Below, one piece after another: positions 46,585-64,000 of a stretch of 64,000 nt of DNA. The DNA lies in the NCBI RefSeq assembly GCF_003853705.1, contig NZ_QTQI01000005.1, positions 248,001 to 312,000 of the forward strand. Direction: 5' to 3'. Below the pieces are notes generated by a model. It was given only the letters and a program-made list of their open reading frames with translations. It made no database searches and was not told the origin of the DNA. Origin of the DNA: Burkholderia sp. Bp8992. Its GTDB lineage: Bacteria; Pseudomonadota; Gammaproteobacteria; Burkholderiales; Burkholderiaceae. Position 1 is the stretch's first letter. Every line of letters begins with the position of its first letter. A program made the position numbers and the translations under genes.

Positions 46585-48042
46585 ATGGAGATGAACTTGC
46601 AAGAGATTCGCATAAGCGAATCAGCGCCCAAAAAGCTGTCGGGAAACATGGGGCCGATCGGCCTCGCACTGATGGTGCTCGCGTTCTCGGCACCTTTGAC
46701 GACGGTGTCCGGTTACATTCCGTTCGCGCTGATGTTCGGAGGGGTGAGCAGCCCGGTGTTGTTCGTCGTGGTGACGATCGTTCTGCTCTTTTTTTCCGTC
46801 GGTTACGTGACGCTCAACAACATCGTCAAGCGGCCGGGCGATTTCTATGCGTTCGTGAGTTTCGGCATCGGAAAGTCAACCGGCCTCGGTTCGGGCATCC
46901 TTGCGGCGGTGTCGTACTTTCTGCTGCTCGCGGGAGTGACGTCGTTCTTCGGCGTGTCGTGTTCCGATCTCCTGCATGAAACGACCGGCGCTACGCTCCC
47001 CTGGTACATTCCCACGATCGCGTGCTGGATGGCCTGCGGCATCCTCAGCTACCTGCATGTCGAGTTGTCGGCGAAGGTGCTGACGTGGATCATGCTGCTC
47101 GAGATCGCGGTATGTCTCATCTTCTCGTTCTTTGTGCTTGCGAAGGGCGGGGCGTCCGATATCTCGGCGGCCGCTCCGTTTGCGCCGAGCCAGCTTTCGA
47201 AGAGCGCGAGCGTACCGTTCTCGGTGCTGTTCATCGTCGGCTTCTTCATGGGATTTGAGGCGACCGCGCTGTTCCGCGACGAAGTCCGTATGCCCGACCG
47301 GACGATTCCGGTAGCCACGTATGGTGCGGTCATCTTCATCGGCGTCGTCTATACGATTTGCGCGTATGCGCTGATCATGGCTTACGGGTCGCATGTCCAG
47401 GACATCGCTACCAAGACACCGGCCGCCATGTTTCCCGACGCATTCTCGAAATTCGTCAGCGGTCGTCTCCATGTCGTGATCTCGCTGCTGGTACTGACGT
47501 CGGCGTTCGCATCGGCACTGTCCACCCAGAACGTCCTGGCGCGCTACATGCACAACCTCGGCACCGACGGCGCGCTGCCGCGATTCCTCGGTAAGGTTCA
47601 TCCGAGGCACGAGTCGCCTTACCTCGCGTCGATCACGGTGTCGGTGATGGTGCTTTGCGTGTTGATTCCGTTCATCGTAATGGGCGCCAAGCCGGACCTG
47701 CTCTACGGGCAACTCTCCGGAGTCGGTACGTCGGGAATCGTCGTTCTGATGGCGATCGTCAGCATCTCATCGTTGGTCTGGTACAGCCGAAGCGGCAGGC
47801 ACCAGGGCGTCAGCTTTTTCAAGTCGGCGGTCGCACCCGCGATTTCCTCGGTGTTCTTCATCGCGCTGGTCGTGCTGATTGCCCAGCACTTCGATGTTCT
47901 GGCCGGTGGTGATCCGGGGCAGTACGTATGGATGTTCTACTGCTTGATCGGCGTGCTGCTCGTCGGCATCGCACTGGCTCAATACTTCAAGTACCTGCGC
48001 CCGGAAATTTTCGAGCGGCTTGGCCGCAGCCACAAGGACTGA
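46585..48042 (+). CDS. APC-superfamily amino acid permease, paralogue 1
   Basis: Inner-membrane permease (485 aa) with about twelve helices. The APC family segments are GLALMVLAFSAPLTTVSGYIP (helix 1), GKSTGLGSGILAAVSYFLLLAG and FIVGFFMGFEATALFRDEVRMPDRTIPVATYGAV (helix 6-7 region). Nearly every segment is mirrored in the permease at 55974 (for example NVLARYMHNLGTDGALPRFLGKVHPRHESPYLASI). The ATG at 46585 follows GGAGGTGGG and matches the paralogue's start (MEMN/MEMK). A strong terminator follows. Likely imports the amino acid or derivative processed by the downstream genes. Confidence 0.9.
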   Translation: MEMNLQEIRISESAPKKLSGNMGPIGLALMVLAFSAPLTTVSGYIPFALMFGGVSSPVLFVVVTIVLLFFSVGYVTLNNIVKRPGDFYAFVSFGIGKSTGLGSGILAAVSYFLLLAGVTSFFGVSCSDLLHETTGATLPWYIPTIACWMACGILSYLHVELSAKVLTWIMLLEIAVCLIFSFFVLAKGGASDISAAAPFAPSQLSKSASVPFSVLFIVGFFMGFEATALFRDEVRMPDRTIPVATYGAVIFIGVVYTICAYALIMAYGSHVQDIATKTPAAMFPDAFSKFVSGRLHVVISLLVLTSAFASALSTQNVLARYMHNLGTDGALPRFLGKVHPRHESPYLASITVSVMVLCVLIPFIVMGAKPDLLYGQLSGVGTSGIVVLMAIVSISSLVWYSRSGRHQGVSFFKSAVAPAISSVFFIALVVLIAQHFDVLAGGDPGQYVWMFYCLIGVLLVGIALAQYFKYLRPEIFERLGRSHKD

Positions 48043-48098
48043 ATCGTTGAGCGACCGGGGCGGAGATGTTCCGCCTCATCCTGGGTCGTTTCTCCTTT

Positions 48099-48128
48099 GA
48101 TCCCGAATAATTTTCGGGATCTTTTTTT
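48099..48128 (+). terminator. Rho-independent terminator after permease 1
   Basis: GATCCCGAA-TAATT-TTCGGGATC followed by seven T's: a perfect 9-bp stem with 5-nt loop, 57 nt after the stop codon. Confidence 0.93.
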
Positions 48129-48253
48129 GTTTTTCGGCTCGTCGTTCCCGGCGCGTCCGGCTACCTGTAACGGCCGATGCAGAAACGTCACGACCGAGTT
48201 CACCTCATCCATTCATCCAGAAGACGTCCGACTTGTCGGATGCATCCCAGACC

Positions 48254-49393
48254 ATGGTCTTCGAGACTGCAAGCGAAAACAACAAACGGGCTGCAACACG
48301 CGCATCATTTTTTCTCGCGGGAATCAGCGTTGCGACGTGGGCGCCACTGGTACCTTACGCGAAGGCACGCCTTGACGTCGACGAAGCGAAATTCGGCTTC
48401 CTGCTGCTCTTCCTGGGTATCGGGGCCGTCGGGTGCATGCCGCTCTGTCAGCGCGCAGTCGATCGATTTGGCTGTCGCAACGTCATCGGTGCGGGCGCCG
48501 CGATGATCTGCGCATCGCTTCCGCTCTTGGCGACGCTGTCCGGCATGCCGGCGATGGCGATCACGCTGTTGATCTTCGGTGCCGGCCTGGGATTCGTCGA
48601 CGTGGCGATGAACATCCAGGCGACGCTGATTGAACGGCAAAGCGGCGAGCAACTGATGTCTGGCTTCCACGGCCTGTTCAGCGTCGGCGGAATTGCGGGC
48701 TCGCTGGTCGGTGGCTCGCTGTTGTCGGCCGGCGCGAATCCGCTCGGTGTAGCGGGAGCCATAGTTGCGGTCATCGCCGTGCTCATGTTTCGCTACGCGC
48801 GGTTCCTGGAGCCGGCAGGGCCCGGCGAGCGCACGGCCTCGGTATTGATCCTGCCGCAGGGGATCGTCGTCTTGATGGGGGCCATTGCGATCGGGTGTTT
48901 TCTCGTCGAAGGTGCGATGCTCGACTGGAGCGCGCTATTCCTGACCTCCGTGAAGTCGTATGCGCAGGATCGCGCAGGCTTCGGCTATACCGCGTTCGCG
49001 ATGACGATGGCGATCGGTCGACTCTTCGGTGACGCGTTGATTACCCGGGTCGGTTCGCGCGTGATGATCGTATCGGGCGGGATCCTCGGTGCGGTCGGGA
49101 TGTCCATCGCGATCGCTTTGCCGTCGGGCACGGGCGCGATCATTGGGTTTGCCGTGTGCGGGGCCGGGTGCGCGAACATCGTACCCATCCTGTTCGCGGC
49201 CGCCGGGCGGCAAACGGCCATGGATCCTTCTGCCGCAATTTCGTCGATCACGACATTAGGCTATGGCGGCAATCTGGTCGGACCGGCAATTGTCGGCTTC
49301 TTTGCGCATGCGATCGGCCTGCATCTTGCATTTGCGTTGCTCGCCGTGCTGCTTGTACTCGCCGCGTTTGGCGGCCGGAAGATCGAGTCGTGA
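48254..49393 (+). CDS. MFS transporter, YbjJ-like
   Basis: Inner-membrane carrier of 379 aa. Begins RATRASFFLAGISVATWAPLVPYAKARLDVDEAKFGFLLL, the pattern of the YbjJ/FucP-like MFS branch, with GAGLGFVDVAMNIQATLIERQSGEQLMSGFHGLFSVGGIAGSL divided over helices 4-5. Twelve helices can be traced. No clear ribosome site; TTG 48233 would add seven residues, ATG 48254 is used. It stands alone between a terminator and the dehydratase operon. It may export or import a pathway metabolite; substrate unknown. Confidence 0.88.
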   Translation: MVFETASENNKRAATRASFFLAGISVATWAPLVPYAKARLDVDEAKFGFLLLFLGIGAVGCMPLCQRAVDRFGCRNVIGAGAAMICASLPLLATLSGMPAMAITLLIFGAGLGFVDVAMNIQATLIERQSGEQLMSGFHGLFSVGGIAGSLVGGSLLSAGANPLGVAGAIVAVIAVLMFRYARFLEPAGPGERTASVLILPQGIVVLMGAIAIGCFLVEGAMLDWSALFLTSVKSYAQDRAGFGYTAFAMTMAIGRLFGDALITRVGSRVMIVSGGILGAVGMSIAIALPSGTGAIIGFAVCGAGCANIVPILFAAAGRQTAMDPSAAISSITTLGYGGNLVGPAIVGFFAHAIGLHLAFALLAVLLVLAAFGGRKIES

Positions 49394-49516: not shown

Positions 49517-50503
49517 ATGACCGATCTCTCATCCGGCGATTTCTCGGTCGCCGACATCGAAGCCGCCTATGTGCGCATCCTGCCGTTCGTCATGCGAACG
49601 CCTCTGCTCGAGAGCGAGATGCTCAACCGTGCGGTAGGGGCCCGTGTGCTCGTCAAGGCGGAAAGCCTTCAGAAGACGGGCTCCTTCAAGTTCCGGGGCG
49701 CGTGCAATCGCGTGCTGCAGATTCCGGCTGCCATGCGGCCGCGAGGCGTCGTCGCCTTCTCGTCGGGAAATCACGCGTTGGCGATCTCGGCGGTTTGCGC
49801 GCGATTCGGCATGCCGGCCACCATCATCATGCCGGCCGATGCACCCAAGGCAAAAATCGAGGGTGCGCGGGCCTATGGTGCAACCGTGCGTCTTTATGAT
49901 CGACAAACCGACGACCGGGAAGCAATCGGCCGGGACATTGCGGAGCGCACCGGCGCCGTGACCGTTCCCCCTTACGACGATCGTCAGGTGATGGCCGGGC
50001 AGGGCACCGTCGGTCTCGAGATCGTGCAGCAAACGCAGGCGCTCTCGGTGGTCCCGGATGTGGTTCTTGCGGCTGCCAGCGGCGGCGGCCTGGTCGCCGG
50101 GGTCGCGACGGCGATCAACGCGTACTGCCGGCAAGCGCGTATCTACGCTGTCGAGCCGCAGGGGTTCGACGATCACGCACGATCGCTGGCGAAGGGGGAG
50201 CAGGTTGCCAATGCCGCGGGTGCCAGATCGATCTGTGATTCGCTGCAGGTCGCCTCTCCCGGCAAGCTGACGTTCCCGATCAACAAGCGGCTGCTGGCCG
50301 GGAGTCTCGTCGTCGACGACGACGAGGTGCGTCGGGCGATGCGCGCGGCCTTCGAGACACTGAAGCTCGTCGTGGAACCCGGTGGCGCGGTGCCGCTCGC
50401 GGCAGTCCTTGCCGGAAAGCTCGACGTCGCCGGAAAGACCGTCGTACTGGTGCTGAGCGGCGGTAACGTGGACCACGACGTCTTCGTCAGTGCACTGGCC
50501 TGA
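49517..50503 (+). CDS. PLP-dependent threonine/serine dehydratase family protein
   Basis: Fold-type II PLP enzyme (328 aa) eliminating water (or ammonia) from a hydroxy-amino acid to give a 2-oxo acid. The PLP lysine is Lys58 in KTGSFKFRGACNRV, the substrate-carboxylate loop is SSGNHALAIS, the phosphate loop AASGGGLVAGV, and the last-strand VLSGGNVDHD is normal for the family. It lacks the C-terminal ACT-like regulatory domain of biosynthetic threonine deaminase, so it is catabolic in type. Possible substrates include threonine, serine or 3-hydroxyaspartate. First gene of an operon with a DUF4392 protein, RidA and an MFS transporter. Confidence 0.9.
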   Translation: MTDLSSGDFSVADIEAAYVRILPFVMRTPLLESEMLNRAVGARVLVKAESLQKTGSFKFRGACNRVLQIPAAMRPRGVVAFSSGNHALAISAVCARFGMPATIIMPADAPKAKIEGARAYGATVRLYDRQTDDREAIGRDIAERTGAVTVPPYDDRQVMAGQGTVGLEIVQQTQALSVVPDVVLAAASGGGLVAGVATAINAYCRQARIYAVEPQGFDDHARSLAKGEQVANAAGARSICDSLQVASPGKLTFPINKRLLAGSLVVDDDEVRRAMRAAFETLKLVVEPGGAVPLAAVLAGKLDVAGKTVVLVLSGGNVDHDVFVSALA

Positions 50504-50554
50504 CCATCCGGTATTCATCTACCCAAAGCGCATTCCTGCCAGGAGGCAATTGCC

Positions 50555-51622
50555 ATGCTGCAACCAGACAGCAAGCAGTACCAACGCGTCGCGCGCACGA
50601 TCGACGAATTCATGACGCTCGATTACACGGGCGTCGGACTCATCGGCAACATCTACGAGGCGCTGCAGAGGCGGCAGCCCGGCTACGCATGCATGGGCGC
50701 GGCCGAACGAATCGTCGAGGCGGTAAGGCGACAAGGCGGTCCGGTGCTCATCGCCACGGGATTCCCGGAGGGGGGCGGTGCGCCCGAGACCGATGGGCCG
50801 GTTGGTGCTGCGCTAATGGCGCGCGCATTCTTCCTGGGTCTGGGGGTGCCGACCGTCATCGTGATCGACGAGGACTGGGAGGCGATGATGGTGCAGACCT
50901 GCCGCGGCGCAGGACTGGCGCCGATGCCGTTCCCGGAAGACGGCGTGGTGAAAGGGATCGAGTACCTGCGGCCCGTCTACATTCGGACCGTCCCCAAGGA
51001 CAAGGAAGGCAGTCATCGTGTTTCGGATGACCTGCTCGAGCGCACCCGGCCGAGCGTCATGATTTCGATCGAGCGTCCCGGTTGCAATGCGCTGGGGCTC
51101 TACCACGGCTTGGGCGGCCGTCCGCTCGACGGACTCGTTGCCGACCTCGATTACTTGTTCTATCAGGGAAAGGAGCGAGGCATTCTGCATATCGGCGTGG
51201 GTGATGGCGGCAATGAACTCGGCATGGGGGTGATTGCGGCGGATCTGCCCGCGTTTTCCCCGAAGGCTGCATCAACCGGCGTTGCCGGGCGAGGAGGCGT
51301 TGCGGCGATCAATGCAGCCGATCACCTCGTCGTCGCGAATGTGTCGAACTGGGGCGCGACGGGCATCATTGCAGCGCTTTCGGCACTGCTGGAGAACCCT
51401 GTCGTGTTTCATGACCCGGAGCTCGAGATCCGATGCATCGAATGCTGTGTTAATTCGGGCGGGGTGGACGGCATGTTCATGGCGCCCGAGCCCGCCGTGG
51501 ACGGTATCAGCGCGCTCGAATGGGAAGGATTGCTTCGTACGCTTCGTGCAAGTGTCCGACGCACGCTTGGCGACTCGATCAACTGGCAGGGAGAACGTGG
51601 CGACTGGAGGCAATTGAAATGA
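50555..51622 (+). CDS. DUF4392 protein, D-glutamate cyclase C-terminal-like
   Basis: 355-aa protein matching the DUF4392 domain of mammalian D-glutamate cyclase (DGLUCY). Recognisable parts: VLIATGFPEGGGAPETDGPVGAALMARAFFLGLGVPTVIVIDE near 65-105, MISIERPGCNALGLYHGLGG, and the signature GILHIGVGDGGNELGMGV. The vertebrate enzyme interconverts D-glutamate and 5-oxo-D-proline and joins this domain to a DUF1445 part, which occurs separately here at 63383. Bacterial stand-alone versions are not well characterised. AGGAGG precedes the ATG at 50555; the stop overlaps the RidA start. Confidence 0.88.
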   Translation: MLQPDSKQYQRVARTIDEFMTLDYTGVGLIGNIYEALQRRQPGYACMGAAERIVEAVRRQGGPVLIATGFPEGGGAPETDGPVGAALMARAFFLGLGVPTVIVIDEDWEAMMVQTCRGAGLAPMPFPEDGVVKGIEYLRPVYIRTVPKDKEGSHRVSDDLLERTRPSVMISIERPGCNALGLYHGLGGRPLDGLVADLDYLFYQGKERGILHIGVGDGGNELGMGVIAADLPAFSPKAASTGVAGRGGVAAINAADHLVVANVSNWGATGIIAALSALLENPVVFHDPELEIRCIECCVNSGGVDGMFMAPEPAVDGISALEWEGLLRTLRASVRRTLGDSINWQGERGDWRQLK

Positions 51623-52092
51623 CGGAACAGACCACGATCGATGCGCGCCTCGCCGAACTGGGCCTCGAACTGCCGCCGGCGAGCGTGCCGCGCGGCAGTT
51701 ATCTGCCCGCGGTGCGGTCGGGAAACTACCTCCAGATAGCGGGGCAGGGACCGCGCCTGGGCGGTGACCTGCTTTATGCCGGAAAGGTCGGCACCGACCT
51801 CAGCGTGGAGGACGGGCAGCGCGCAGCTCAGCTCTGTGCACTGAACATCCTGAGTCACATTGGACGAATGCTGGAGGGCGATTTTTCGCGCGTCGTTCGC
51901 ATCGTTCGCGTTGCCGGCGTCGTGCAGTGCGACGCCGATTTTACCGAGCACGCGAAGGTGCTGAATGGTGCTTCCGACCTGTTCTTCGCCGTTCTCGGAG
52001 AAGCGGGGCGGCACGCGCGTATTGCGACGGGCGCCAATTCCTTGCCGTCCGGCATGGCCGTGGAAGTGGAGGCGACCGTGGAGATCGCCTGA
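51619..52092 (+). CDS. RidA family (YjgF/YER057c) enamine/imine deaminase
   Basis: 157-aa member of the RidA family. The trimeric barrel segments YLPAVRSGNYLQIAGQGPR, ALNILSHIGRMLEG and the active-site Arg strand RIATGANSLPSGMAVEVEATVEIA are visible. RidA enzymes hydrolyse reactive enamine/imine intermediates released by PLP-dependent dehydratases, which fits its position two genes after such a dehydratase. It starts with an ATGA overlap on the DUF4392 stop. Longer N-terminus than canonical RidA (about 128 aa), as in the YjgH/RutC-like subgroups. Confidence 0.9.
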   Translation: MTEQTTIDARLAELGLELPPASVPRGSYLPAVRSGNYLQIAGQGPRLGGDLLYAGKVGTDLSVEDGQRAAQLCALNILSHIGRMLEGDFSRVVRIVRVAGVVQCDADFTEHAKVLNGASDLFFAVLGEAGRHARIATGANSLPSGMAVEVEATVEIA

Positions 52093-52163
52093 TGCCCGCA
52101 TGTGCGGATTGCCGGGCGTAAGCAGATCAAGTCGGTACGAAACCTGAAGGGAGAGAGGTGAGC

Positions 52164-53480
52164 ATGCAATTCGATTCAGCAGCCGGTCCGATACGTGACG
52201 GCGTGCATTCCGAAGGTACGTACCGGACGGTCGCCTTTCGGATCATGCCGTTCCTGATGCTGTGCTACGTCACGGCATATCTCGATCGCATCAACATCGG
52301 CTTCGCGAAGCTTCGCATGCTGTCGGATCTTGGGCTGACGGACGCGACGTACGGGCTGGGGGCCGGCCTGTTCTTCATCGGCTATTTCCTGTTCGAGGTG
52401 CCGAGCAACGTGCTGATGGCGAAGATCGGCGCAAAAAGGACCATCTCGCGAATCATGATTCTCTGGGCGCTGATTTCGGCGGCCTTTGCGTTCGTTTCGA
52501 CGCCAGCCCAGTTCTATGTGCTTCGCTTCCTGCTCGGGGTGGCCGAGGCCGGCTTTTACCCCGGCATCATCCTGTACCTGACATACTGGTTTCCGTCCGC
52601 GCGTCGCGCGAAGATGGTGGCGCTCTTCGTCGGTGCGGTGCCCTTGTCTGGCATGATCGGAGCGCCGGTATCGGGTGCGATCATGTCGGCGCTCGAGGGC
52701 GCGCATGGATTGGCAGGGTGGCAATGGCTCTTCGTCATCGAGGCGATACCGTCGATTGTGCTCGGGCTATTGACGCTCGTATTCCTCGACGACAGCCCGG
52801 CGTCCGCTCGCTGGTTGAGGGATCGAGACAGACGTTTCATCGAGCGCGAGCTGGACGCGGATCGTCGAGCGATAGACGGACAGGGCGCCGGGATGAGCCT
52901 GCGGCAGACGGTGACAAACCGCAAGGTCTGGCACATGACGCTCATCTGCTTCTGTTCGGCGATCTGCTCGTATGGCGTTTCGTTCTGGTTGCCTACGCTG
53001 GTCGCGCAACTGGCGCCGGGCGACGTCCTGCGTATCGGGCTCTACACGTCGTTGCCGTTCAGCGCGGCATTTGTCGGAATGTATCTGATCGGGCGTAGCT
53101 CCGATAAACTGCGCGAACGCCGCTGGCATCTCGTGGTGCCGTTTCTGTGCGTGATTGCCGGGCTCATCGCGAGCGTATTCACGCGCGGCACGCCGGTCGT
53201 TGCATTGGCGGCGCTGTGTGTCGCAGCCGTGGGCGCGTACAGTACGACGTCAATGCTGTTTTCGATTCCGGGGCTGTTCCTGACGGGGATCGGCATGGCT
53301 GCCGGTGTCGCCTTCATCAACTGCGTCGGCGGGTTGGGCGGATTCGTCAGCCCCTATGTCGTGGGCGTCGTCAAGGACATGACCGGGAGCACCGATTATG
53401 GTGTTTTCTTTATTTCGTTGATGGCCGCAATCGGCGTGGTGCTGACTCTGTGCCTTCCGAAGAAGCTCGTCAATCGCTGA
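52164..53480 (+). CDS. MFS transporter, ACS family
   Basis: 438-aa inner-membrane symporter. ACS hallmarks: CYVTAYLDRINIGFAKLRML in helix 1, FFIGYFLFEVPSNVLMAKIGAKRTISRIM, and RFLLGVAEAGFYPGIILYLTYWFPSARRAKM, as in tartrate and 4-hydroxyphenylacetate permeases (TtuB/HpaX-like). The ATG at 52164 is chosen with GAGAGG 6 nt upstream; GTG 52158 is possible. Last gene before the LysR regulator, 71 nt after RidA. It probably moves the carboxylate substrate or product of the operon. Confidence 0.9.
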   Translation: MQFDSAAGPIRDGVHSEGTYRTVAFRIMPFLMLCYVTAYLDRINIGFAKLRMLSDLGLTDATYGLGAGLFFIGYFLFEVPSNVLMAKIGAKRTISRIMILWALISAAFAFVSTPAQFYVLRFLLGVAEAGFYPGIILYLTYWFPSARRAKMVALFVGAVPLSGMIGAPVSGAIMSALEGAHGLAGWQWLFVIEAIPSIVLGLLTLVFLDDSPASARWLRDRDRRFIERELDADRRAIDGQGAGMSLRQTVTNRKVWHMTLICFCSAICSYGVSFWLPTLVAQLAPGDVLRIGLYTSLPFSAAFVGMYLIGRSSDKLRERRWHLVVPFLCVIAGLIASVFTRGTPVVALAALCVAAVGAYSTTSMLFSIPGLFLTGIGMAAGVAFINCVGGLGGFVSPYVVGVVKDMTGSTDYGVFFISLMAAIGVVLTLCLPKKLVNR

Positions 53481-53559
53481 GATCGATGGCCGTTGACACC
53501 TGTTGTGTCTGAACGATTGCGGGCCGGCATTTTCTTCATGTTCGACGTGAACAGAGCAG

Positions 53560-54453: not shown

Positions 54454-54543
54454 ACGCGTGTTCCGATGCTCGACGGCGCGCCGCGATTAATAGGGCTGCA
54501 TCATGGTAAGCCCTGCCGCCTGACGTAGTTTGGAGATTTTTAT

Positions 54544-54586
54544 CATCCTTTGGGTGGACGAGGGGCGAGCGTGTCATTTCTAGAAT
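54544..54586 (+). promoter_or_regulatory. Shared element before lipA (CCTTTGGGTGGACGA-N18-CTAGAAT)
   Basis: GGTGGACGA (54553-54561) and CTAGAAT (54580-54586) are separated by exactly 18 nt, the same words and spacing as at 58607-58640 before the E1/E2 operon. The left arm forms an imperfect dyad around CCTTTGGG. CTAGAAT could include a -10 hexamer (TAGAAT). Confidence 0.55.
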
Positions 54587-54750
54587 GAAATCAATTGTCG
54601 GACGCGCGATATCACCGTCCGGCTTGACGCGATTCGCTCGTTGCGAGCTCTTCGATGGGGTCTCAGTGAAGAGCAGCATGGCGATCATCTCGACCCACAA
54701 ATAGGCTGTTGACCACCGGTTTTCGCAAGACAGCCGGACAGGAGGCGAAA

Positions 54751-55785: not shown

Positions 55786-55829
55786 ATCGCCAACGGCAAT
55801 TGGACCTGATCAATTTGGCGGCGGACGAT
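55786..55829 (+). promoter_or_regulatory. Conserved 44-nt LysR-type element, copy 2
   Basis: Centre ATTG-GACCTGAT-CAAT (55799-55814), the same perfect dyad and T-N11-A pattern as copy 1, embedded in the same flanks (ATCGC at the left, GGACGAT at the right) with no gap. Located 145 nt before permease 2. Confidence 0.75.
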
Positions 55830-55973
55830 GGCTCGCGTAACGAACCGAACCGGGCACCATGTCGGCCGCGAGTTGAAAATGAGTGCCCGGACACACAAAC
55901 GATCGAGGCGCGAAGCAGCGCAAGTTCGGCAATGCTGGCGATATGTTGGAGGCGTAAGGAGATGGAGGTGGAG

Positions 55974-57437
55974 ATGGAGATGAAACTGAATATGGAAGAC
56001 GTTCAAATAGAAGCGTCTCCGCAGAAGAAGCTGTCGGGCAGCATGGGGGCCGTCGGTCTGGCGCTTACCGTCCTGGCGTTCTCGGCCCCGTTGACGACCG
56101 TATCGGGTTACATTCCGTTCGCGCTGATGTTCGGTGGAGTCGGCAGTCCCGTGATCTTCGTATTGACGACGCTCGTATTGCTGCTGTTTTCCGTCGGCTA
56201 TGTGACGCTCAACAATATCGTGAAGCGTCCCGGTGACTTCTATGCGTTCATCAGCTATGGCATCGGAAAATCGACGGGCCTCGGTTCCGGCATACTCGCA
56301 GCGGTCTCGTACTTCCTGCTCCTCGCAGGCGTCACGTCGTTCTTCGGCGTATCGTGCTCCGATCTCGTGCACGACATGACTGGTACGTCGATTCCGTGGT
56401 ACTGGCCGACGCTCGCGTGCTGGCTGGTGGTTTCGATGCTGGGATACCTTCATGTGGAGCTGTCCGCCAAGGTGCTGACGTGGGTGATGATTCTCGAGAT
56501 CGTCGTCTGTCTGGCGTTCTCGTTCGGTGTGCTGGCGAAAGGTGGCGTGCCGGGTGTTTCCGCATCCGCGCCATTCATGCCGAGTCAACTGGCGAACAGT
56601 ACCAACGTACCGTTCTGCATGCTGTTCACCGTGTCGTTCTTCATGGGATTCGAGGCTACCGCCCTGTTTCGCGACGAAGTGAAGATGCCGGACCGGACGA
56701 TTCCGCGTGCGACGTATGGTGCCGTCATCTTTATCGGCGTGATCTACACGCTGTGTGCGTACGCGATGATCATGGCTTACGGGCCGCAGGTTCAGTCGAT
56801 CGCGGCCAAGACTCCCGCGGCGATGTTCCCTGACGCCTTCGCGAAATTCGTGAACCCTGGCCTGCACCTGATCGTTTCGGTGCTGGTAATGACGTCGGCG
56901 TTTGCGGCGAGCCTGTCCACACAGAACGTGCTTTCGCGCTATATGCACAACCTTGGCACGGACGGCGCGCTTCCCCGCTTCCTCGGGAAGGTGCACGCGA
57001 AGCACGAGTCTCCGTATCTTGCTTCGATGACCGTTTCGGTCATGGTGCTGTGCGTGCTGATGCCGTTCATCCTGATGGGCGCCAAACCCGATCTGCTTTA
57101 CGGGCAACTTTCCGGCGTCGGGACGTCGGGCATCATCATCCTGATGACCATCGTCAACATCTCGTCGTTGGTCTGGTACGTTCGTCGAGGCAGGCAACAG
57201 GGCGTGAGTTTCGCCAAGTCGTTTCTGGCACCGGCGATTTCATCGGTATTCTTCATCGCGCTGGTTTATCTCGTGGCTGCACACTTCGACGTGCTTGCGG
57301 GCGGTGACCCCGGGCAGTACGTTTGGATGTTCTACTGCCTGATCGGTGTGCAGGTCGCGGGCATGGCACTTGCCCAATACTTCAAGCACCGGCGCCCCGA
57401 AGTCTTCGAATGCCTGGGGCGCAGCCAGAACGGTTGA
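55974..57437 (+). CDS. APC-superfamily amino acid permease, paralogue 2
   Basis: 487-aa inner-membrane permease, paralogous to that at 46585 over its full length: LALTVLAFSAPLTTVSGYIP, FFGVSCSDLVHD, FFMGFEATALFRDEVKMPDRTIP, GTDGALPRFLGKV and GAKPDLLYGQLSGVGTSGI all have near-identical partners. The ATG at 55974 follows GGAGGTGG as in paralogue 1; ATG 55962 would add four residues. Same 44-nt upstream element and same kind of strong terminator downstream, so promoter, gene and regulation were duplicated together. A different but related substrate is likely. Confidence 0.9.
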   Translation: MEMKLNMEDVQIEASPQKKLSGSMGAVGLALTVLAFSAPLTTVSGYIPFALMFGGVGSPVIFVLTTLVLLLFSVGYVTLNNIVKRPGDFYAFISYGIGKSTGLGSGILAAVSYFLLLAGVTSFFGVSCSDLVHDMTGTSIPWYWPTLACWLVVSMLGYLHVELSAKVLTWVMILEIVVCLAFSFGVLAKGGVPGVSASAPFMPSQLANSTNVPFCMLFTVSFFMGFEATALFRDEVKMPDRTIPRATYGAVIFIGVIYTLCAYAMIMAYGPQVQSIAAKTPAAMFPDAFAKFVNPGLHLIVSVLVMTSAFAASLSTQNVLSRYMHNLGTDGALPRFLGKVHAKHESPYLASMTVSVMVLCVLMPFILMGAKPDLLYGQLSGVGTSGIIILMTIVNISSLVWYVRRGRQQGVSFAKSFLAPAISSVFFIALVYLVAAHFDVLAGGDPGQYVWMFYCLIGVQVAGMALAQYFKHRRPEVFECLGRSQNG

Positions 57438-57515: not shown

Positions 57516-58409
57516 CTAGCGCCCTTCGTAATGCGCGGCGACGTTCTGCGCGAGCCCGGCAACGATCGCACTCAGCGGCATGTCGACGCGGCGAACGAAA
57601 CTGGCGGTGAACGGCATCACCGGCATTTCGTGGCCGGTGTCGATTCGGCGCAGCCGGCCGCTCGACAGGTGTTCGGCCACGACGTGGTGCGGAATCGCCG
57701 CGATGCCGATGCCGTCGAGCGTCATCCGGACGATCGACGACAGCGACGAGTTGCCGAAGATTCTCACGTGATGCAGATGCGACCGATCGAACATCTCCTT
57801 TAGCTGCATGTACGGACGTGTCGATCTGGAGAACGTGATGATCGGATGCCGCGCAAGATCGCTTAGCGTGAGGCTGGCCGCGTCGCATTCAAAATCCGAC
57901 GAGACGATCCAGCTGATCGGATAGCTGCACAACGGCAGATTCTCCGCGTTGCTCGCATTCACGGGGCCCATCAGGAGCGCGACGTCGATCGTGCCGTCGG
58001 CGAGCCCCGCGGTCAGGTTCGGCGTGGCGTCGACATTGACCTCGAGCGTGATCTCCGGATATTCGATGCTGAGCCGCTTGAGCAGCGCGGACAGCCATGT
58101 GTGCACGATCGTGTCCGACGCGCCGAGCTGAACCGTCCCGCTCAGGGCCGTCCGGCCAGCGACGGCCTCGACCATTTCGGCACTCAGCGAAATCATTTGC
58201 TCCGCGTAGACAAGCAGTTGCCTGCCCTTGATGGTCAGGAAGCAACCTCGCTTGTCCCGCTCGAATAGACGTCCCTTCAGTTGCTGTTCGAGTTGCGCGA
58301 TGCGCGCGGATACAGCGGGCTGTGTCGTGTGCAACCTTTCCGCGGCACGGTGAAATCCCCCCAGCTGGGCGACGGCGTAAAAGGTCTCCAGGTTTCGAAG
58401 ATCGATCAT
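57516..58409 (-). CDS. LysR family transcriptional regulator, paralogue 2
   Basis: 297-aa LTTR. Winged helix: LRNLETFYAVAQLGGFHRAAERLHTTQPAVSARIAQLEQQLKGRLFER; effector domain from about 90 (VQLGASDTIVHTWLSALLKRL). Paralogue of 53560-54453. It is divergent from the E1/E2 operon across a 548-bp region that holds the 44-nt element copy 3, the normal arrangement for a LysR activator and its target. Probable activator of the E1/E2 operon and, through copies 1 and 2, of the permeases. Confidence 0.93.
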   Translation of the reverse strand: MIDLRNLETFYAVAQLGGFHRAAERLHTTQPAVSARIAQLEQQLKGRLFERDKRGCFLTIKGRQLLVYAEQMISLSAEMVEAVAGRTALSGTVQLGASDTIVHTWLSALLKRLSIEYPEITLEVNVDATPNLTAGLADGTIDVALLMGPVNASNAENLPLCSYPISWIVSSDFECDAASLTLSDLARHPIITFSRSTRPYMQLKEMFDRSHLHHVRIFGNSSLSSIVRMTLDGIGIAAIPHHVVAEHLSSGRLRRIDTGHEMPVMPFTASFVRRVDMPLSAIVAGLAQNVAAHYEGR

Positions 58410-58792: not shown

Positions 58793-58836
58793 ATCGCCAA
58801 TCACAATTGGACCGGACGAAATTGAACGGCGACGAT
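58793..58836 (+). promoter_or_regulatory. Conserved 44-nt LysR-type element, copy 3
   Basis: Gapless match to copies 1 and 2. Left flank ATCGCCAAT and CAATTGGACC are kept; the right dyad half is shifted (GAAATTG instead of CAATTTG), and GACGAT closes the element at 58831-58836. Located 122 nt before E1alpha. Confidence 0.68.
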
Positions 58837-58957
58837 TGAAATGGCATGTCGGCACTGCTGTCGCGATATTCGTGGGGCGAGCCGGATTTGCAACACGGTT
58901 GAGTGTGTCGCGTCGAAGCGCACAGCTACGCACACCATTTAAATTAAGGAGATTGGA

Positions 58958-59935
58958 ATGTCCGCCTTGAAGTTTCCCAGTGAGCGGCTCGTGGACGCTT
59001 ATCGCGCCATGCGAACGATTCGCCGCTTCGAGGAGCGCGTGATGGACGAGATGGCGACCGGCGACATTCCGGGCAACACCCATCTTTGTGCCGGGCAGGA
59101 GGCGAGTGCCGTCGGCGTGTGCCTGCACCTGACGGACAAGGACTACATTTCGTCGACCCATCGCGGGCATGGTCACAGTATTGCCAAGGGATGCGATATC
59201 GGCGCAATGATGGCCGAGCTGTTCGGGCGTGCGACGGGAACGTGCGGCGGCAAAGGCGGCTCGCAGCATATCGCTGACCTGCGCAAGGGGATGCTGGGCG
59301 CGAACGGCATCGTGGCCGGCGGTGCGCCGATAACGTGCGGCGCCGCGCTCACGGCGAAGTTACTCGGCACCGGTGGCGTGGCGGTTGCGTTCGCAGGTGA
59401 CGGTGCGATGAACGAAGGCGTGATGTCGGAGAGCTTCAACCTCGCGAAGATCTGGATGCTTCCGATCGTCTTCGTGATCGAGGACAACGGCTTCGGCGAA
59501 GCGACGGCAAATTCGTTCGTCTCGGCCGGCAGCTTCACGCGGCGCGCGCAGAGCTACGACATTCCTGCTGCCGAAGTCGACGGCACCGACTTGTTCGCGG
59601 TCTACGAGGCCGCCGGCCAGGCGATCGATCGTGCCCGCAATGGCGGCGGCCCGAGCCTGCTGCAGATTCACGTGCCGCGCTACTACGGTCACTACAGCGG
59701 AGACCCCGACAACTATCGCACGCCGGAAGAAAAGAAGGCCATGCGCCAGGAGCGCGATTGCGTTGCCAATTTCCGCAGGCAGGTGCAGGAAGGGTCGCAA
59801 GTGGCCAGCGGCGAGTTGGACGCGATCGACGCGCAGATCGAGACCGAGATCGACGCCGCCGTGAGTGCCGCACGCGCAGCCCCGTTCCCGCCGCTTTCGG
59901 CACTGACCGCCGACGTTTACGTGAAGTATCTGTAA
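58958..59935 (+). CDS. Thiamine-diphosphate E1 alpha subunit, acetoin dehydrogenase type (second set)
   Basis: 325-aa AcoA-like subunit. Hallmarks: [63 protein letters not shown] and the TPP motif FAGDGAMNEGVMSESFNLAKIWMLPIVFVIEDN. Distinct from, but clearly related to, the subunit at 32310. An AAGGAG site precedes the ATG. First of a run of E1alpha, E1beta, E2, SDR, GlcG-like and DUF1445 genes, divergent from the LysR regulator. Substrate could be acetoin or a 2-oxo acid derived from the dehydratase pathway. Confidence 0.93.
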   Translation: MSALKFPSERLVDAYRAMRTIRRFEERVMDEMATGDIPGNTHLCAGQEASAVGVCLHLTDKDYISSTHRGHGHSIAKGCDIGAMMAELFGRATGTCGGKGGSQHIADLRKGMLGANGIVAGGAPITCGAALTAKLLGTGGVAVAFAGDGAMNEGVMSESFNLAKIWMLPIVFVIEDNGFGEATANSFVSAGSFTRRAQSYDIPAAEVDGTDLFAVYEAAGQAIDRARNGGGPSLLQIHVPRYYGHYSGDPDNYRTPEEKKAMRQERDCVANFRRQVQEGSQVASGELDAIDAQIETEIDAAVSAARAAPFPPLSALTADVYVKYL

Positions 59936-59947: not shown

Positions 59948-60955
59948 ATGGCAAAGAAATCGTTCCGTCAAGCGTTGAATGACGCGCTGCACTCGGAGAT
60001 GGCGCGTGATCCGCGCGTGATCATGATGGGTGAGGATTTGACCGGCGGCGCCGGCGCCAACGGCGTCAAGGATGCGTGGGGCGGTGCTTTCGGCGTGACG
60101 CGCGGGCTTCTCGACGCCTACGGCCCCGAGCGCATTCGCGATACGCCGATCAGCGAGGCCGCATTCGTCGGCGCGGCCGCCGGCGCGGCCCTCACGGGTT
60201 TGCGTCCGATCGCCGAACTGATGTTCGTCGACTTCGCCGGCGTGTGTCTCGACCAGATCATGAATCAGATCGCGAAGTTCCGGTACATGTTCGGCGGTCG
60301 CGCCAAGACGCCGCTCGTGATTCGCGCGACGTACGGTGCCGGCACGCGCTCGGCCGCGCAGCACACGCAGGCGTTTTATCCGATCTTCACGCACATTCCC
60401 GGCCTCAAGGTCGTGATCCCGTCGAATCCGTACGACGCGAAAGGCCTGCTGCTCCAGGCGATCCGCGACGACGATCCGGTGATCTTCCTCGAAAACAAGA
60501 TGCTGTACGACACCGTGGGCGAAGTGCCCGACGGCGCATACACGATTCCGTTCGGCGAGGCGCGGGTGGTGCGGGACGGGAAAGACGTGCTGATCGTTGC
60601 GCTCGGCCGCATGGTCGGCGTGGCGGAGACGGCCGCTCGCCTCCTCGCGGCAGACGGCGTGTCGGCATGCATCATCGATCCGCGCACGACGTCGCCGCTC
60701 GACGAGGACACGCTGCTCGAATACACCGAGGACATCGGACGGGTCGTGATCGTCGACGAGGCGAATCCGCGCTGCAGCGTCGCGACGGATATCTCCGCGC
60801 TGCTGGCCGACAAGTGCTTCGACTCGCTGAAGGGGCCGATCCGGCTCGTGACGGCGCCGCACACGCCGGTGCCGTATGCACCGAACCTGGAAGACGCGTA
60901 CGTGCCGTCGCCGGAAGCCGTCGTGAATGCCGTCAAGTCGATTCTGAAGGGGTAA
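59948..60955 (+). CDS. Thiamine-diphosphate E1 beta subunit, acetoin dehydrogenase type (second set)
   Basis: 335-aa AcoB-like subunit. Conserved parts: VIMMGEDLTGGAGANGVKDAWGGAFGVTRGL, ERIRDTPISEAAFVGAAAGAA, SAAQHTQAFYPIFTHIPGLKVVIPSNPYDAKGLL and ACIIDPRTTSPLDEDTLLEY. The GAGANG/WGGAFGVTRGL form is typical of 2-oxo acid dehydrogenase beta subunits of the acetoin class. It lies 12 nt after E1alpha and 6 nt before E2. Confidence 0.93.
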   Translation: MAKKSFRQALNDALHSEMARDPRVIMMGEDLTGGAGANGVKDAWGGAFGVTRGLLDAYGPERIRDTPISEAAFVGAAAGAALTGLRPIAELMFVDFAGVCLDQIMNQIAKFRYMFGGRAKTPLVIRATYGAGTRSAAQHTQAFYPIFTHIPGLKVVIPSNPYDAKGLLLQAIRDDDPVIFLENKMLYDTVGEVPDGAYTIPFGEARVVRDGKDVLIVALGRMVGVAETAARLLAADGVSACIIDPRTTSPLDEDTLLEYTEDIGRVVIVDEANPRCSVATDISALLADKCFDSLKGPIRLVTAPHTPVPYAPNLEDAYVPSPEAVVNAVKSILKG

Positions 60956-60961
60956 TCAATC

Positions 60962-62083
60962 ATGTCGTTCATTGAAGCCGTCACCATCCCCAAGTGGGGG
61001 ATGACGATGACCGAAGGCACCGTGCTCGAATGGCACGCGAAGGAGGGAGACAAGGTCGAACGTGGCCAGGAACTCCTCGAGGTCGAATCCACGAAGGTCA
61101 ACAACGTGGTGGAGGCGACCGTGTCCGGGATCCTGCGGCGCATCGTCATCGACGAGGGCGAAATCGCGCCGGTCGGCGCGCTGATCGGCGTCATCGCCGA
61201 TGAAGCGGCGACCGAGGAGGAAATCGACGCGCTTGTCGCAAGCTACGCGCATCGCCTGAATGCGGACGACGGCGAGGCGGGCGGTGTGGTCGCACCGAAG
61301 GCGGTCGCCGTGTCCGGCGGCAGCGTGAACGTGCTGGAGCTCGGCCCCGAAAGCAACGAAACCGTGTTGTTCATTCACGGCTTCGGCGGCGACCTGTCGA
61401 CCTGGCTGTTCAACCAGGGCACGCTCGCCGAGCAGTTCCGGACGATCGCGGTGGACCTTCCCGGGCACGGCGCGTCGACGCCGATTACCGGTGGCGGTGT
61501 GATCAAAAAGATCACTGTGGCGGTCGAGGAAGCGGCGAGCGCGATCACGTCCGGGAAACTGCACCTGGTCGGTCACTCGTTTGGCGGCGCGATCGCCGCG
61601 GCCTTCGCGGCCGCCAACCCGTCGCGGGTCGCATCGGTGACGCTCATCGCGCCAATCGGCCTGGGCAAAGAGATCAACCGCTCGTTCGTGACCGAATTCG
61701 TCGCTGCGGAGCGCCGCCGTCCGCTTCAGGCCGCGCTGGAGAAGCTGTTTGCCGATCCGTCGAAGATCACGAGCGAAATGGTCGAGGGCACGCTTCAGTT
61801 CAAGCGGCTGGAAGGCGTCCAGGAGGCGCTGTCCGCGATCGCCGACACCATCGCCGACGAAAACGGCCAGGTTCAGACGATCGGTGCGATGCTGGCTGGA
61901 CTCACCTGCCCCGTGATGCTGCTCTGGGGCGAGCGCGACGCCATCATTCCGGTCGCGCAGGCCAACGACCTGCCGTCCACGGTGCAGTTGCGCGTGATTC
62001 CGGACGTCGGCCATATGCCGCAAATGGAGGCAGCGTCGGTCGTGAACGATGCGCTGCTGGAGAACATCCGTCGCGCCCGATAA
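60962..62083 (+). CDS. Lipoyl E2 component fused to an alpha/beta-hydrolase domain, second set (AcoC-like)
   Basis: 373-aa protein. Lipoyl domain 1-78 with modified Lys45 (VESTKVNNVVEA). A short charged linker follows, and I see no peripheral subunit-binding domain, unlike the E2 at 34328. An alpha/beta-hydrolase domain runs from about 130: LFIHGFGGDLSTW, nucleophile VGHSFGGAIAAAFA, LLWGERDAIIPVAQ (acid) and VGHMPQMEA (His). This is the AcoC architecture of acetoin dehydrogenase complexes. Without a subunit-binding domain the interaction with E3 must differ. No E3 gene is seen up to the window end. Confidence 0.92.
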   Translation: MSFIEAVTIPKWGMTMTEGTVLEWHAKEGDKVERGQELLEVESTKVNNVVEATVSGILRRIVIDEGEIAPVGALIGVIADEAATEEEIDALVASYAHRLNADDGEAGGVVAPKAVAVSGGSVNVLELGPESNETVLFIHGFGGDLSTWLFNQGTLAEQFRTIAVDLPGHGASTPITGGGVIKKITVAVEEAASAITSGKLHLVGHSFGGAIAAAFAAANPSRVASVTLIAPIGLGKEINRSFVTEFVAAERRRPLQAALEKLFADPSKITSEMVEGTLQFKRLEGVQEALSAIADTIADENGQVQTIGAMLAGLTCPVMLLWGERDAIIPVAQANDLPSTVQLRVIPDVGHMPQMEAASVVNDALLENIRRAR

Positions 62084-62160: not shown

Positions 62161-62916
62161 ATGTCAGGACGTTTGACAGGCAAGCGGGTACTTCTGACCG
62201 GCGGCGTTGCCAATATCGGTCTCGCCATTCTGGAGTCGTTCGTTGCCGAAGGTGCGACCGTGTCGGTCGTCGATATCGATGAGGTCAAGGGCCGCGCGCT
62301 CGAATCCCGGTTCGGCGACAAGGTGCGTTTTTTTCGAACCGACATCTCGAGCGAAGACGAGATCAAGGCCGTCATCGAGAAGTCGTCGGAATGGATGCGC
62401 GGCATCGACACGTTGTGTCTGAATGCCGGCGTCCAGCTCTCCGGGCGGATCGAGCAGTTCAGCACCGAGAGCTGGGACAAGGTCTTCGGGATCAACGTGC
62501 GCGCCAACTTCATTTTCGCGCGCGAGTCGCTCCGTCACCTGAGAGCCGCGAAGAAGTCGTCGATCGTGATGATGTCGTCGCTCGCGGGCAAGCGCGGCGG
62601 CACCGGCCTCGCATGCTACTCGGCGTCTAAGGCGGCCATCATTGGTCTGACGACCACGCTTGCAATCGAGCTCGCGCCGGACGGCGTGCGTGTCAATGCC
62701 GTGTGTCCCGGCTGGATCGATACGCCGTTCAATCAACCGGTGATCGATTTCATGGGTGGCCGCGACAAGCAGGAGTCGGTGGTTCGGACGGCTATCCCCC
62801 TCGGCCGACAGGCGACGCCGGACGAGGTCGCGCCGCTGTTTGTCTACCTCGCATCGGACGAGTCGTCTTACGTCACCGCGCAGGCAATCAATGTCGATGG
62901 CGGCGCGTACAACTGA
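62161..62916 (+). CDS. SDR family oxidoreductase
   Basis: 251-aa classical SDR with intact active site. Cofactor loop TGGVANIG at 13-20, CLNAG at 86-90, catalytic Ser139/140 (MMSSLAG), Tyr153 and Lys157 (CYSASKAAI). The Asp in VVDID after strand 2 suggests NAD preference. The ATG at 62161 follows GAGGAAA; 77 nt separate it from E2. Might reduce or oxidise a hydroxy-ketone, for example acetoin or a related diol, that feeds the adjacent complex. Confidence 0.92.
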   Translation: MSGRLTGKRVLLTGGVANIGLAILESFVAEGATVSVVDIDEVKGRALESRFGDKVRFFRTDISSEDEIKAVIEKSSEWMRGIDTLCLNAGVQLSGRIEQFSTESWDKVFGINVRANFIFARESLRHLRAAKKSSIVMMSSLAGKRGGTGLACYSASKAAIIGLTTTLAIELAPDGVRVNAVCPGWIDTPFNQPVIDFMGGRDKQESVVRTAIPLGRQATPDEVAPLFVYLASDESSYVTAQAINVDGGAYN

Positions 62917-62943
62917 CTGCCGGACAGAATCGGGAAGAAGCCA

Positions 62944-63357
62944 ATGAGCAAGCAGATCACAAATGAAGCCGCACGGCGGGCGATCGAAGCGGGCGTCGCG
63001 AAGGCGAACGAACTGGCGCAGCGCTCGTCGTTGTCGATCGTGGATGCGGGCGGCCACCTTGTTGCGTTCACACGCGTGAACGACGCGGCGTTCGGCACGA
63101 TCGAAATTGCGCACAACAAGGCGTATACCGCCGCAGCACTGCGGTTCCCTACCGATTACTGGATGAATTTCGTTCAGCCCGGAGCCGAGCTCTACGGGCT
63201 CGAGCGCGCGGCGTCCCGCCCGCTGGTCGTGTTCGGCGGCGGCCTGCCGGTGAAGCACGGCGACGAGGTCATCGGTGGGGTAGGCGTGTCGGGTGGTCCG
63301 GAGGAAGCGGACGTGGCGATTGCGCGTGCGATGGTTGCTGCGCTCGGCGAGAACTGA
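62944..63357 (+). CDS. GlcG/HbpS family protein (DUF336)
   Basis: 137-aa protein with the GlcG/HbpS fold: SLSIVDAGGHLVAFTRVNDAAFGTIEIAHNKAYTAAAL and the glycine-rich GGGLPVKHGDEVIGGVGVSGGPEEADVAIARAM. Members bind haem or small ligands, and many sit in catabolic operons (glycolate, 1,3-propanediol, acetoin) with unclear function. A GGGAAGAAG site precedes the ATG at 62944, 27 nt after the SDR. Confidence 0.92.
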   Translation: MSKQITNEAARRAIEAGVAKANELAQRSSLSIVDAGGHLVAFTRVNDAAFGTIEIAHNKAYTAAALRFPTDYWMNFVQPGAELYGLERAASRPLVVFGGGLPVKHGDEVIGGVGVSGGPEEADVAIARAMVAALGEN

Positions 63358-63382
63358 ACATCTTCCTGCAAAGGTGCTTTCA

Positions 63383-64000
63383 ATGGAATCGACTGCAGGT
63401 ACGCGGACGATGTCGGCCGACCAGGTTCGGCTGCTGATTCGCGACGGCAAGCTGCGTGCGCCGACGACGGGATACGCCGATGGCTTCATGCAGGCAAATC
63501 TGGCAATTCTGCCGAAGATGTACGCAGATGATTTTCGCGAGTTTTGCCGAATCAACCCCAAGAGCTGTCCGCTGGTGGGAGTCGGGCAGCCCGGCAACCC
63601 GGGGCTGGACGGACTGGGCGCGATCGACATTCGGACCGATGTGCCCCGCTACCGCGTGTACCGGAACGGGGTTCACACCGATACGGTCGACGATCTGGTC
63701 GATCTGTGGCGTGACGATCTCGTGACGTTTGCGCTCGGTTGCTCGTTCTCGTTCGAGAGCGCGATTCTGCAGGCGGGAATCGACATTCGCCACATCAGTG
63801 CGAACCGGAACGTGCCGATGTACGTGACGAATATCCAGACGACGGCCGCGGGGCCGTTTCGCGGCCCGATGGTCGTGTCGATGCGTGCGTTCAAGCCCGC
63901 CGATGCGATCCAGGCGATCGTGCTGTCGGAACGGTTTCCGCTCGCGCACGGCGCACCGGTTCATATCGGCGACCCGGCGACCATCGGGATTCGCGACGTC
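63383..64000 (+). CDS. DUF1445 putative hydro-lyase (D-glutamate cyclase N-terminal-like), 3' end missing
   Basis: Open to the window edge; 206 residues are visible of a family usually about 260-270 aa. Reads RLLIRDGKLRAPTTGYADGF, QANLAILPKMYADDFREFCR, NPKSCPLVGVGQPG, DIRTDVPRYRVYRNG, ALGCSFSFESAI, RHISANRNVPMYVTN and GPMVVSMRAF, all landmarks of DUF1445 (PF07286). The family was named putative hydro-lyase, and the homologous part of vertebrate D-glutamate cyclase acts on D-glutamate/5-oxo-D-proline. The ATG at 63383 lies 25 nt after the GlcG-like gene. The complementary DUF4392 half is encoded at 50555. Confidence 0.9.
   Translation, partial: MESTAGTRTMSADQVRLLIRDGKLRAPTTGYADGFMQANLAILPKMYADDFREFCRINPKSCPLVGVGQPGNPGLDGLGAIDIRTDVPRYRVYRNGVHTDTVDDLVDLWRDDLVTFALGCSFSFESAILQAGIDIRHISANRNVPMYVTNIQTTAAGPFRGPMVVSMRAFKPADAIQAIVLSERFPLAHGAPVHIGDPATIGIRDV

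Follow-up and report, generated by a model that had tools for sequence, protein, structure and literature searches.

A gene set shared by Burkholderia and rhizobial plasmids as a candidate island for calystegine catabolism

Which compound is broken down by a cluster that joins duplicated amino-acid/amine permeases, a pyridoxal-phosphate (PLP) enzyme, the two domains of a D-glutamate cyclase and an acetoin-dehydrogenase-like complex? The question is raised by positions 46585-64000 of a 64,000-nucleotide stretch of Burkholderia sp. Bp8992 (contig NZ_QTQI01000005.1, 248,001 to 312,000; hereafter the window, whose coordinates are used throughout). The original prediction, made from the letters of the window, saw there a coherent catabolic system without a characterised counterpart, and this part has held: the set is co-conserved and co-regulated, and no described counterpart was found. 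Families were assigned with Pfam and equivalogs with the NCBIfam cut-offs (given below as score/cut-off in bits). All the named genes of the region have intact frames, lie where they had been placed and belong to the families stated (Table 1), including the duplicated permeases, both AA_permease_2 proteins, and the D-glutamate-cyclase domains PF07286 (DUF1445) and PF14336 (DUF4392, in the gene that we call GLUCM), which are indeed on separate genes. In our reading the locus is an island dedicated to the catabolism of a bicyclic amine with several hydroxyls, most likely a calystegine, and we judge the chances of this reading to be about even.

A larger locus, inherited together

The window holds the left part of a larger locus, which continues well past position 64000 in relatives. 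In the nearest relative fetched, chromosome 2 of Burkholderia sp. MS389 (L001; fetched loci carry L numbers), GLUCM is 97% identical and AcoA and AcoB are 100% identical to those of the window. There, DUF1445 is followed by genes for OsmC, an ABM-fold protein, PxpA (374/226 on the PxpA subfamily model), a fused PxpBC (259/230 on a 5-oxoprolinase/urea amidolyase domain model), a biotin carboxylase that carries a biotin domain itself, and a Gfo/Idh dehydrogenase. Further on come Gfo/Idh-like genes, 66% and 62% identical to two of the S. meliloti Rm41 locus, then an SDR dehydrogenase (80%) and an alpha/beta hydrolase (76%) with counterparts in the same Rm41 locus. The hydrolase of the set (L064 9190-10077; L027 728-1612) has a close structural match in 7jqz (9e-121 with the protein from Rm41), and its other structural matches are Cif-like and epoxide-hydrolase proteins. 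A second Burkholderiaceae genome, G240, shows the same arrangement from APC1 to Gfo/Idh at 90-99% identity, and the full-length DUF1445 copy of L026 scores 376/324 on NF003969. The extent originally given to the system, 46585-64000, thus contains its genes but falls short of the whole: the most telling genes, for the levoglucosan-dehydrogenase-like Gfo/Idh, PxpABC and biotin carboxylase, are found beyond the window, where the author of the prediction could not see them.

The set is common to soil Burkholderia and plant-symbiont plasmids and is inherited together across alpha- and betaproteobacteria. Among 72,556 plasmid records, GLUCM (E ≤ 1e-60) was found on 15. AcoB at 80% identity or more occurs on 16 plasmids, namely all 15 GLUCM carriers and a relic in P. 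phymatum, with the next matches at 64% (the AcoB counts by identity band cover all 100 records). The SDR at 76-82% is likewise on 16, all 15 GLUCM carriers and O. quorumnocens; PxpBC is on all 15 (14 in the 60-80% band, one at 56.9%), and Gfo/Idh at 85-88% is on 14 plasmids, all among the 15, with the next match at 56%. The plasmid carriers are mostly related, plant-associated Rhizobiaceae and hence do not represent 15 independent events. Among 384 Rhizobiaceae genomes, the same three, search centre included, carry GLUCM, Gfo/Idh and AcoB (at least 83%), and five further genomes have an AcoB at 63-73% without GLUCM or Gfo/Idh. GLUCM at 74% or more was found in 3 of 398 Burkholderiaceae genomes, again including the search centre. 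Conservation of the set as a whole, on which the original prediction had staked its case, is therefore seen on plasmids as well as in Rhizobiaceae and Burkholderiaceae genomes. Gene order is shuffled among Rm41, NGR234, N324, S. americanum, Aureimonas, Gemmobacter and Burkholderia, with most of the set kept (in locus mapping, matches were counted at 35% identity or more, or above 150 bits). On rhizobial plasmids bhc and glc genes flank the set, and lipA is annotated next to it on three of them; Bhc genes also flank it in Gemmobacter.

The shared promoter elements noticed originally were confirmed as well. The exact 10-bp word CAATTGGACC occurs in the window at 46278, 55797 and 58804 and nowhere else, where a first-order simulation expects 0.11 copies per 64 kb. 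With one mismatch, five copies against 3.05 expected are not unusual, so that the operator case rests on the exact copies. In the 7.7-Mb genome of MS389 the exact word is found four times, each time within the locus, ahead of APC1, APC2, AcoA and, for the fourth copy, the SDR/hydrolase genes; in G240, four of its five genome-wide copies are within the locus. The control word, CAATTGGACC read backwards, was found zero times in MS389 and twice in G240. Nine aligned sites have in common the longer form CAATTGGACC-N5-WAWTTGR-N5-GACGAT, and the exact operator was found in 6 of the 89 loci searched, five of Burkholderia/Paraburkholderia origin and L018. Judged by these sites, the set is co-regulated through a putative locus-specific operator, which stands in front of four operons in MS389.

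The P. phymatum relic, on plasmid pBPHY02 (L066 16164-21549), is a decayed copy of the Burkholderia type with the operator word still upstream of AcoA. Its APC2 and LysR2 genes are in pieces, AcoC is annotated as two fragments, and transposases adjoin it.

Substrate, route and rival explanations

Among solved structures, the MS389 Gfo/Idh matches levoglucosan dehydrogenase best (6a3f, 2e-134). Levoglucosan is a triol built on a bicyclo[3.2.1]octane frame. The calystegines, polyhydroxy-nortropane alkaloids made by plants related to nightshade and bindweed, have an 8-azabicyclo[3.2.1]octane frame on which the hydroxyls occupy matching positions. Their use by S. meliloti Rm41 is a familiar example of a plant compound that gives certain rhizosphere bacteria an advantage. 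This strain, unlike Rm1021, uses calystegines, and the accessible part of one report attributes this catabolism to plasmid pRme41a (PMC3556828). That plasmid (NC_018682.1; L064, L068), whose annotation was surveyed on either side of 50,001-54,999, carries the set at ~157-209 kb, a region with two AcoABC copies (their AcoB proteins identical), glcDEF-like genes, bhcABCD and lipA; in Rm1021, GLUCM had no match on pSymA or pSymB, the replicons searched. A partial set was found in O. quorumnocens A44 from the potato rhizosphere (L086 15193-26300: LysR2-like regulator, DUF1445, binding protein, SDR, HbpS, PxpA, PxpBC and biotin carboxylase), and calystegines are present in potato according to the section consulted of PMC11058270. 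The literature on calystegine catabolism, with subscription and older papers outside the scope, yielded no naming of the genes of the trait, and that on DUF4392 and DUF1445 no paper naming this gene set.

For the missing calystegine pathway we tentatively propose oxidation and cutting of the nortropane ring to 5-oxo-D-proline and glyoxylate, with the lactam opened by a biotin-dependent Pxp machine and a split D-glutamate cyclase, a scheme that we would sooner expect to be revised than to hold in full. In Burkholderia the amine would enter through an APC permease, in rhizobia through ABC importers of the polyamine and ribose types, and the levoglucosan-dehydrogenase-like Gfo/Idh would oxidise the C3 hydroxyl of the 2,3,4-triol. 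Thiamine-dependent AcoAB and lipoyl AcoC could then cut the ring C-C bonds adjoining the ketone, at C3-C4 and C1-C2, with transfer of the cleaved units to lipoyl-AcoC and subsequent oxidation of C4. Of the seven ring carbons, C1, C7, C6, C5 and C4 would form a C5 piece with the skeleton of glutamate, which closes to 5-oxoproline, a lactam; C2 and C3 would leave as a C2 piece, either glyoxylate or glycolate. C5 is R in calystegine B2, a configuration that would lead to the D form, 5-oxo-D-proline/D-glutamate; calystegines without the C4 hydroxyl (A3) would require another branch. PxpA, PxpBC and biotin carboxylase, together with the DUF1445/DUF4392 pair, might act on the lactam by opening or interconverting it. 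The last steps from D-glutamate, or from the 3-hydroxyglutamate that ring-6-hydroxylated calystegines would give, might fall to the PLP enzyme and RidA, and glycolate oxidase and the beta-hydroxyaspartate cycle would, where present, take the C2 piece.

A different chain had been drawn originally: uptake of an acidic or D-(hydroxy-)amino acid through an APC permease, its conversion to a 2-oxo acid by the PLP dehydratase (DHT) and RidA, and oxidation of the product by the lipoate complex. In its favour, the 25 GLUCM loci fetched by peptide patterns (close relatives only, two of them beginning inside GLUCM) show DHT adjoining GLUCM in 22 of the 23 uncut loci and RidA following in 22 of 25, many genomes combine LysR-DHT-GLUCM-RidA with an acid-type transporter (MFS2, TRAP or a branched-chain-type ABC system) where AcoABC is not nearby, and DUF1445 and DUF4392 point to D-glutamate/5-oxo-D-proline; DUF1445 itself is in the fetched stretch of 8 of the 25, with fragments in L007, and some of the AcoABC-free loci hold it along with PxpA. 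However, AcoABC occurs in just three of the 25 stretches around GLUCM (L001, L017, L022), so that the module does not need the complex, and neither DHT nor RidA turned up in the L067, L082/L083 and L022 stretches, all of which retain DUF4392, AcoABC, Pxp and Gfo/Idh. Both are thus accessory and unlikely to form the entry step, and DHT was set aside as entry enzyme, being dispensable in some carriers. The chain is probably wrong, and we regard the model built on it as unlikely; an acidic, D-amino acid or cyclic compound (a lactam) does find support as an intermediate. The module rather looks like an acid-using unit, for what we infer to be 5-oxo-D-proline, D-glutamate or 3-hydroxyglutamate, that was taken into a larger pathway. 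DHT itself scores under the cut-offs of the NCBIfam models listed, of which threo-3-hydroxyaspartate ammonia-lyase is nearest (308.9/452; threonine ammonia-lyase, 263/379). Nor does the expected oxidation of a 2-oxo acid fit the complex: its E2 carries an alpha/beta-hydrolase domain and, by its domains and model score, belongs with the ketol-cleaving acetoin enzymes rather than with the 2-oxo-acid acyltransferases. An acetoin/2,3-butanediol operon made of AcoABC, the SDR and LipA would account for the acetoin E2 model passed by AcoC (NF011457) and for the resemblance of the SDR to meso-butanediol dehydrogenase (192/270). Against it, MS389 has a separate aco-type operon (L033), and in the AcoB tree the 15 core rows stand on one side of a 99/99 branch with nine aco-type controls outside. 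These controls are relatives at 64.6-74% identity and no random sample: five of the better matches of one search (from which G523 was left out), three of the five Rhizobiaceae genomes whose AcoB is at 63-73%, and the aco operon of MS389 itself. In eight of them, mapped against all the reference proteins (L072-L079, stretches of 5.5-17 kb, L074 being a contig of just 5.5 kb) no GLUCM, Gfo/Idh or Pxp match rose above the mapping threshold. Acetoin dehydrogenase systems have AcoX and AcoR as operon members; homologues of the L033 proteins, named from their domains (NAD_kinase, with no NCBIfam model, for AcoX; GAF, sigma-54 and Fis-type helix-turn-helix for AcoR), were not found at the mapping threshold in the window, L026 or L027. 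On the AcoB clade and the missing AcoX-like and AcoR-like genes we rejected the acetoin operon, which is hardly credible. LipA had been taken for the complex's own; a LipA beside aco genes is not special, since L033 has one too.

Two other explanations concern the set as a whole. The island could be dedicated to some other cyclic amine with several hydroxyls, for example an iminosugar (piperidine or pyrrolizidine) or an amino-cyclitol like rhizopine. It would then follow the same logic of oxidation, thiamine-dependent ring cleavage and lactam opening, and the genes do suit polyhydroxy ring amines of any kind. Another Gfo/Idh of the set is similar to inositol/chiro-inositol dehydrogenase (273.6 against a cut-off of 540), the binding protein of the Rm41 locus is of polyamine type, though far below model cut-offs, and the plant-associated Rhizobiaceae that dominate among the plasmid carriers would fit such a substrate too. 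The calystegine trait recorded for pRme41a and a score of 34.6 against a cut-off of 420 on the rhizopine binding-protein model speak the other way, and the carbon count to glutamate plus C2 and a dehydrogenase family with bicyclic substrates would suit nortropanes better; we consider this alternative possible, if doubtful. Levoglucosan alone was rejected, as it leaves Pxp, DUF1445 and DUF4392 unexplained. Alternatively, accessory replicons might simply have brought together unrelated pathways for an anhydrosugar, 5-oxoproline and an acetoin-like compound. Catabolic loci do accumulate on the accessory plasmids of rhizobia, and a cluster with a DXR-like (DRL) oxidoreductase and its own E1/E2 genes often neighbours the set without being tied to it, on 11 of the 15 GLUCM plasmids. 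Set against this are the specific AcoB, SDR, PxpBC and Gfo/Idh clades, which recur with GLUCM despite the shuffled order, and the single locus-specific operator ahead of four operons; mainly because of the operator count, a bundle without common purpose is quite unlikely.

The calystegine island has to be weighed against several observations that do not favour it. On its best NCBIfam model, NF052479, Gfo/Idh stays under the levoglucosan-dehydrogenase cut-off in MS389 (549/650) and Rm41 (560/650), and PxpB (122/145.6) and PxpC (188/500) of MS389 stay under those of the 5-oxoprolinase equivalogs. Several other catabolic loci lie on pRme41a, so the calystegine trait could reside elsewhere on the plasmid; many carriers are legume symbionts for which we know of no calystegine phenotype; and the stereochemistry and ring-carbon bookkeeping rest on compound names and hand assignment. 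The shorter module, found alone with acid transporters, has a use without ring chemistry. The S. americanum CCGM7 plasmid carries GLUCM without Gfo/Idh, and AcoABC, GLUCM and the Gfo/Idh of the set were not found in the Ochrobactrum stretch. For BhcC, from which alone the absence of Bhc was judged, the best hit in MS389 and G240 is at 28%, and Aureimonas gave no match; a single query with the isomerase of the rhizobial set likewise turned up nothing close in MS389 or G240. How the route begins and ends thus varies. With the isomerase, BhcC, Gfo/Idh (in CCGM7) and DHT/RidA each missing from some carriers, the route is not identical everywhere. Finally, none of the rhizobial loci searched has the exact operator, which limits the regulon evidence to the Burkholderia lineage.

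If the calystegine island is real, it would give bacterial DUF1445 and DUF4392 a physiological role, and acetoin-type thiamine/lipoate complexes may also cut rings. The set already places these two orphan domain families in a bacterial context, and, being defined, co-regulated and horizontally spread, it makes the question of calystegine use directly testable.

Features of the window and its neighbourhood

Table 1 Genes and operator-like elements of the window (equivalog scores as score/cut-off in bits).
Feature	Position	Strand	Evidence
APC1, amino-acid/amine permease	46585..48042	+	PF13520 5.6e-26; 78% identity to APC2
MFS1 transporter	48233..49393	+	PF07690 1.8e-21
DHT, fold-type II PLP enzyme (dehydratase/ammonia-lyase or racemase), accessory	49517..50503	+	PF00291 (PALP) 1.7e-75
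GLUCM (DUF4392, GLUCM-like_C, D-glutamate-cyclase C-terminal-like), core gene	50555..51622	+	PF14336 1.6e-69
RidA/YjgF-like protein, accessory	51619..52092	+	PF14588 8.5e-26 (longer frame 51520-52092)
MFS2, organic-acid-type MFS transporter	52158..53480	+	PF07690 8.6e-46; 2A0114 325/395
LysR1, regulator of DHT-GLUCM module	53560..54453	+	PF00126/PF03466; close to module in most loci
LipA lipoyl synthase	54751..55740	+	TIGR00510 equivalog passed, 438/310 (frame from 54709)
APC2, amino-acid/amine permease	55962..57437	+	PF13520 1.6e-28 (frame from 55800)
LysR2 regulator, divergent from AcoA	57516..58409	-	LysR family; 64% homologue in L067, L083
AcoA-like E1 alpha (thiamine diphosphate)	58958..59935	+	PF00676 6.5e-77
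AcoB-like E1 beta	59948..60955	+	clade apart from nine aco-type controls, support 99/99
AcoC-like E2, lipoyl domain and alpha/beta hydrolase	60962..62083	+	PF00364, PF00561; NF011457 437.5/307
SDR dehydrogenase	62164..62916	+	PF13561 4.1e-58
HbpS/GlcG-like protein	62944..63357	+	PF03928 2.4e-36
DUF1445 (D-glutamate-cyclase N-terminal-like), cut by window end	63383..64000	+	PF07286 3.3e-34
Operator-like element upstream of APC1	46278..46317	+	exact 10-mer and site alignment
Operator-like element upstream of APC2	55797..55836	+	exact 10-mer and site alignment
Operator-like element, LysR2-AcoA intergenic region	58804..58843	+	exact 10-mer and site alignment

Upstream of the region, positions 29685-41095 hold a separate sugar-type cluster with a sugar-binding regulator (PF04198), the DRL oxidoreductase (PF21135 DRL_cat, SAF), a second set of E1 alpha, E1 beta and E2 genes with an SDR (by similarity), a sorbitol-type PTS and PTS EI/HPr. 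It was considered as a part of the system, since S. americanum, Rm41 and Gemmobacter have it as well as the window. Homologues of the oxidoreductase at 65-71% were found on 34 plasmids, and as 23 of these lack GLUCM, the DRL-oxidoreductase/AcoABC-like/PTS cluster (29.6-41.1 kb) was left out of the system. Between the PTS genes and APC1, at 42337-46001, lie DJ-1/PfpI, glyoxalase, GMC oxidoreductase and ribbon-helix-helix genes, for which there is no room in MS389, where less than 1 kb separates PTS EI from APC1; this reflects either an insertion in the window or a deletion in MS389.

DUF4392 was also met in other settings. In eight Burkholderiaceae genomes (L037-L044), two DUF4392 matches at 29-39% identity lie ~2.3 kb apart, a tandem arrangement in which the domain is used differently. 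Weak DUF4392-like matches in very long frames of about 2150-3730 aa (L046, L048, L049, L051, L054-L063) may be antisense or compositional; the one frame searched against Pfam gave no match.

Comparison with known systems

The closest parallel is the calystegine catabolism of Rm41, since the plasmid credited with the trait bears the same gene set. The Burkholderia locus differs from it in using APC permeases instead of ABC importers and in having no close homologue of the isomerase or BhcC. The levoglucosan pathway (LgdA/LGDH, LgdB, LgdC) resembles the set in its first dehydrogenase, of the same family as the Gfo/Idh, and, for the rhizobial sets, in the TIM-barrel isomerase partner and the sugar ABC importer. 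However, as laid out in the accessible sections of the sequence similarity network paper on it (PMC10066097), it comprises no AcoABC, Pxp-biotin carboxylase or D-glutamate-cyclase domains, and the word calystegine is absent from the main text of that paper.

With acetoin dehydrogenase AcoABC, the locus shares E1 alpha, E1 beta and an E2 with lipoyl and alpha/beta-hydrolase domains, as well as a LipA nearby, but its AcoB belongs to a distinct clade, AcoX-like and AcoR-like genes were not found at the loci named above, and the complex is kept together with lactam and Gfo/Idh genes. PxpA and the PxpB/PxpC carboxyltransferase domains recall the PxpABC 5-oxoprolinase; in contrast to that enzyme, PxpB and PxpC are fused here and stand beside a biotin carboxylase with its own biotin domain, a machine more like urea carboxylase.

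Finally, the locus has both domains of the mammalian D-glutamate cyclase (C14orf159/9030617O03Rik), a DUF1445-DUF4392 protein that converts D-glutamate to 5-oxo-D-proline, as stated in the portion seen of PMC5339696. The accessible text of PMC5132392 describes a DUF1445-DUF4392 fusion and names six metal-site acids of TON_0340, all of which are conserved in our DUF4392 alignment. In the locus the two domains of this putative cyclase are instead on separate genes ~12 kb apart.

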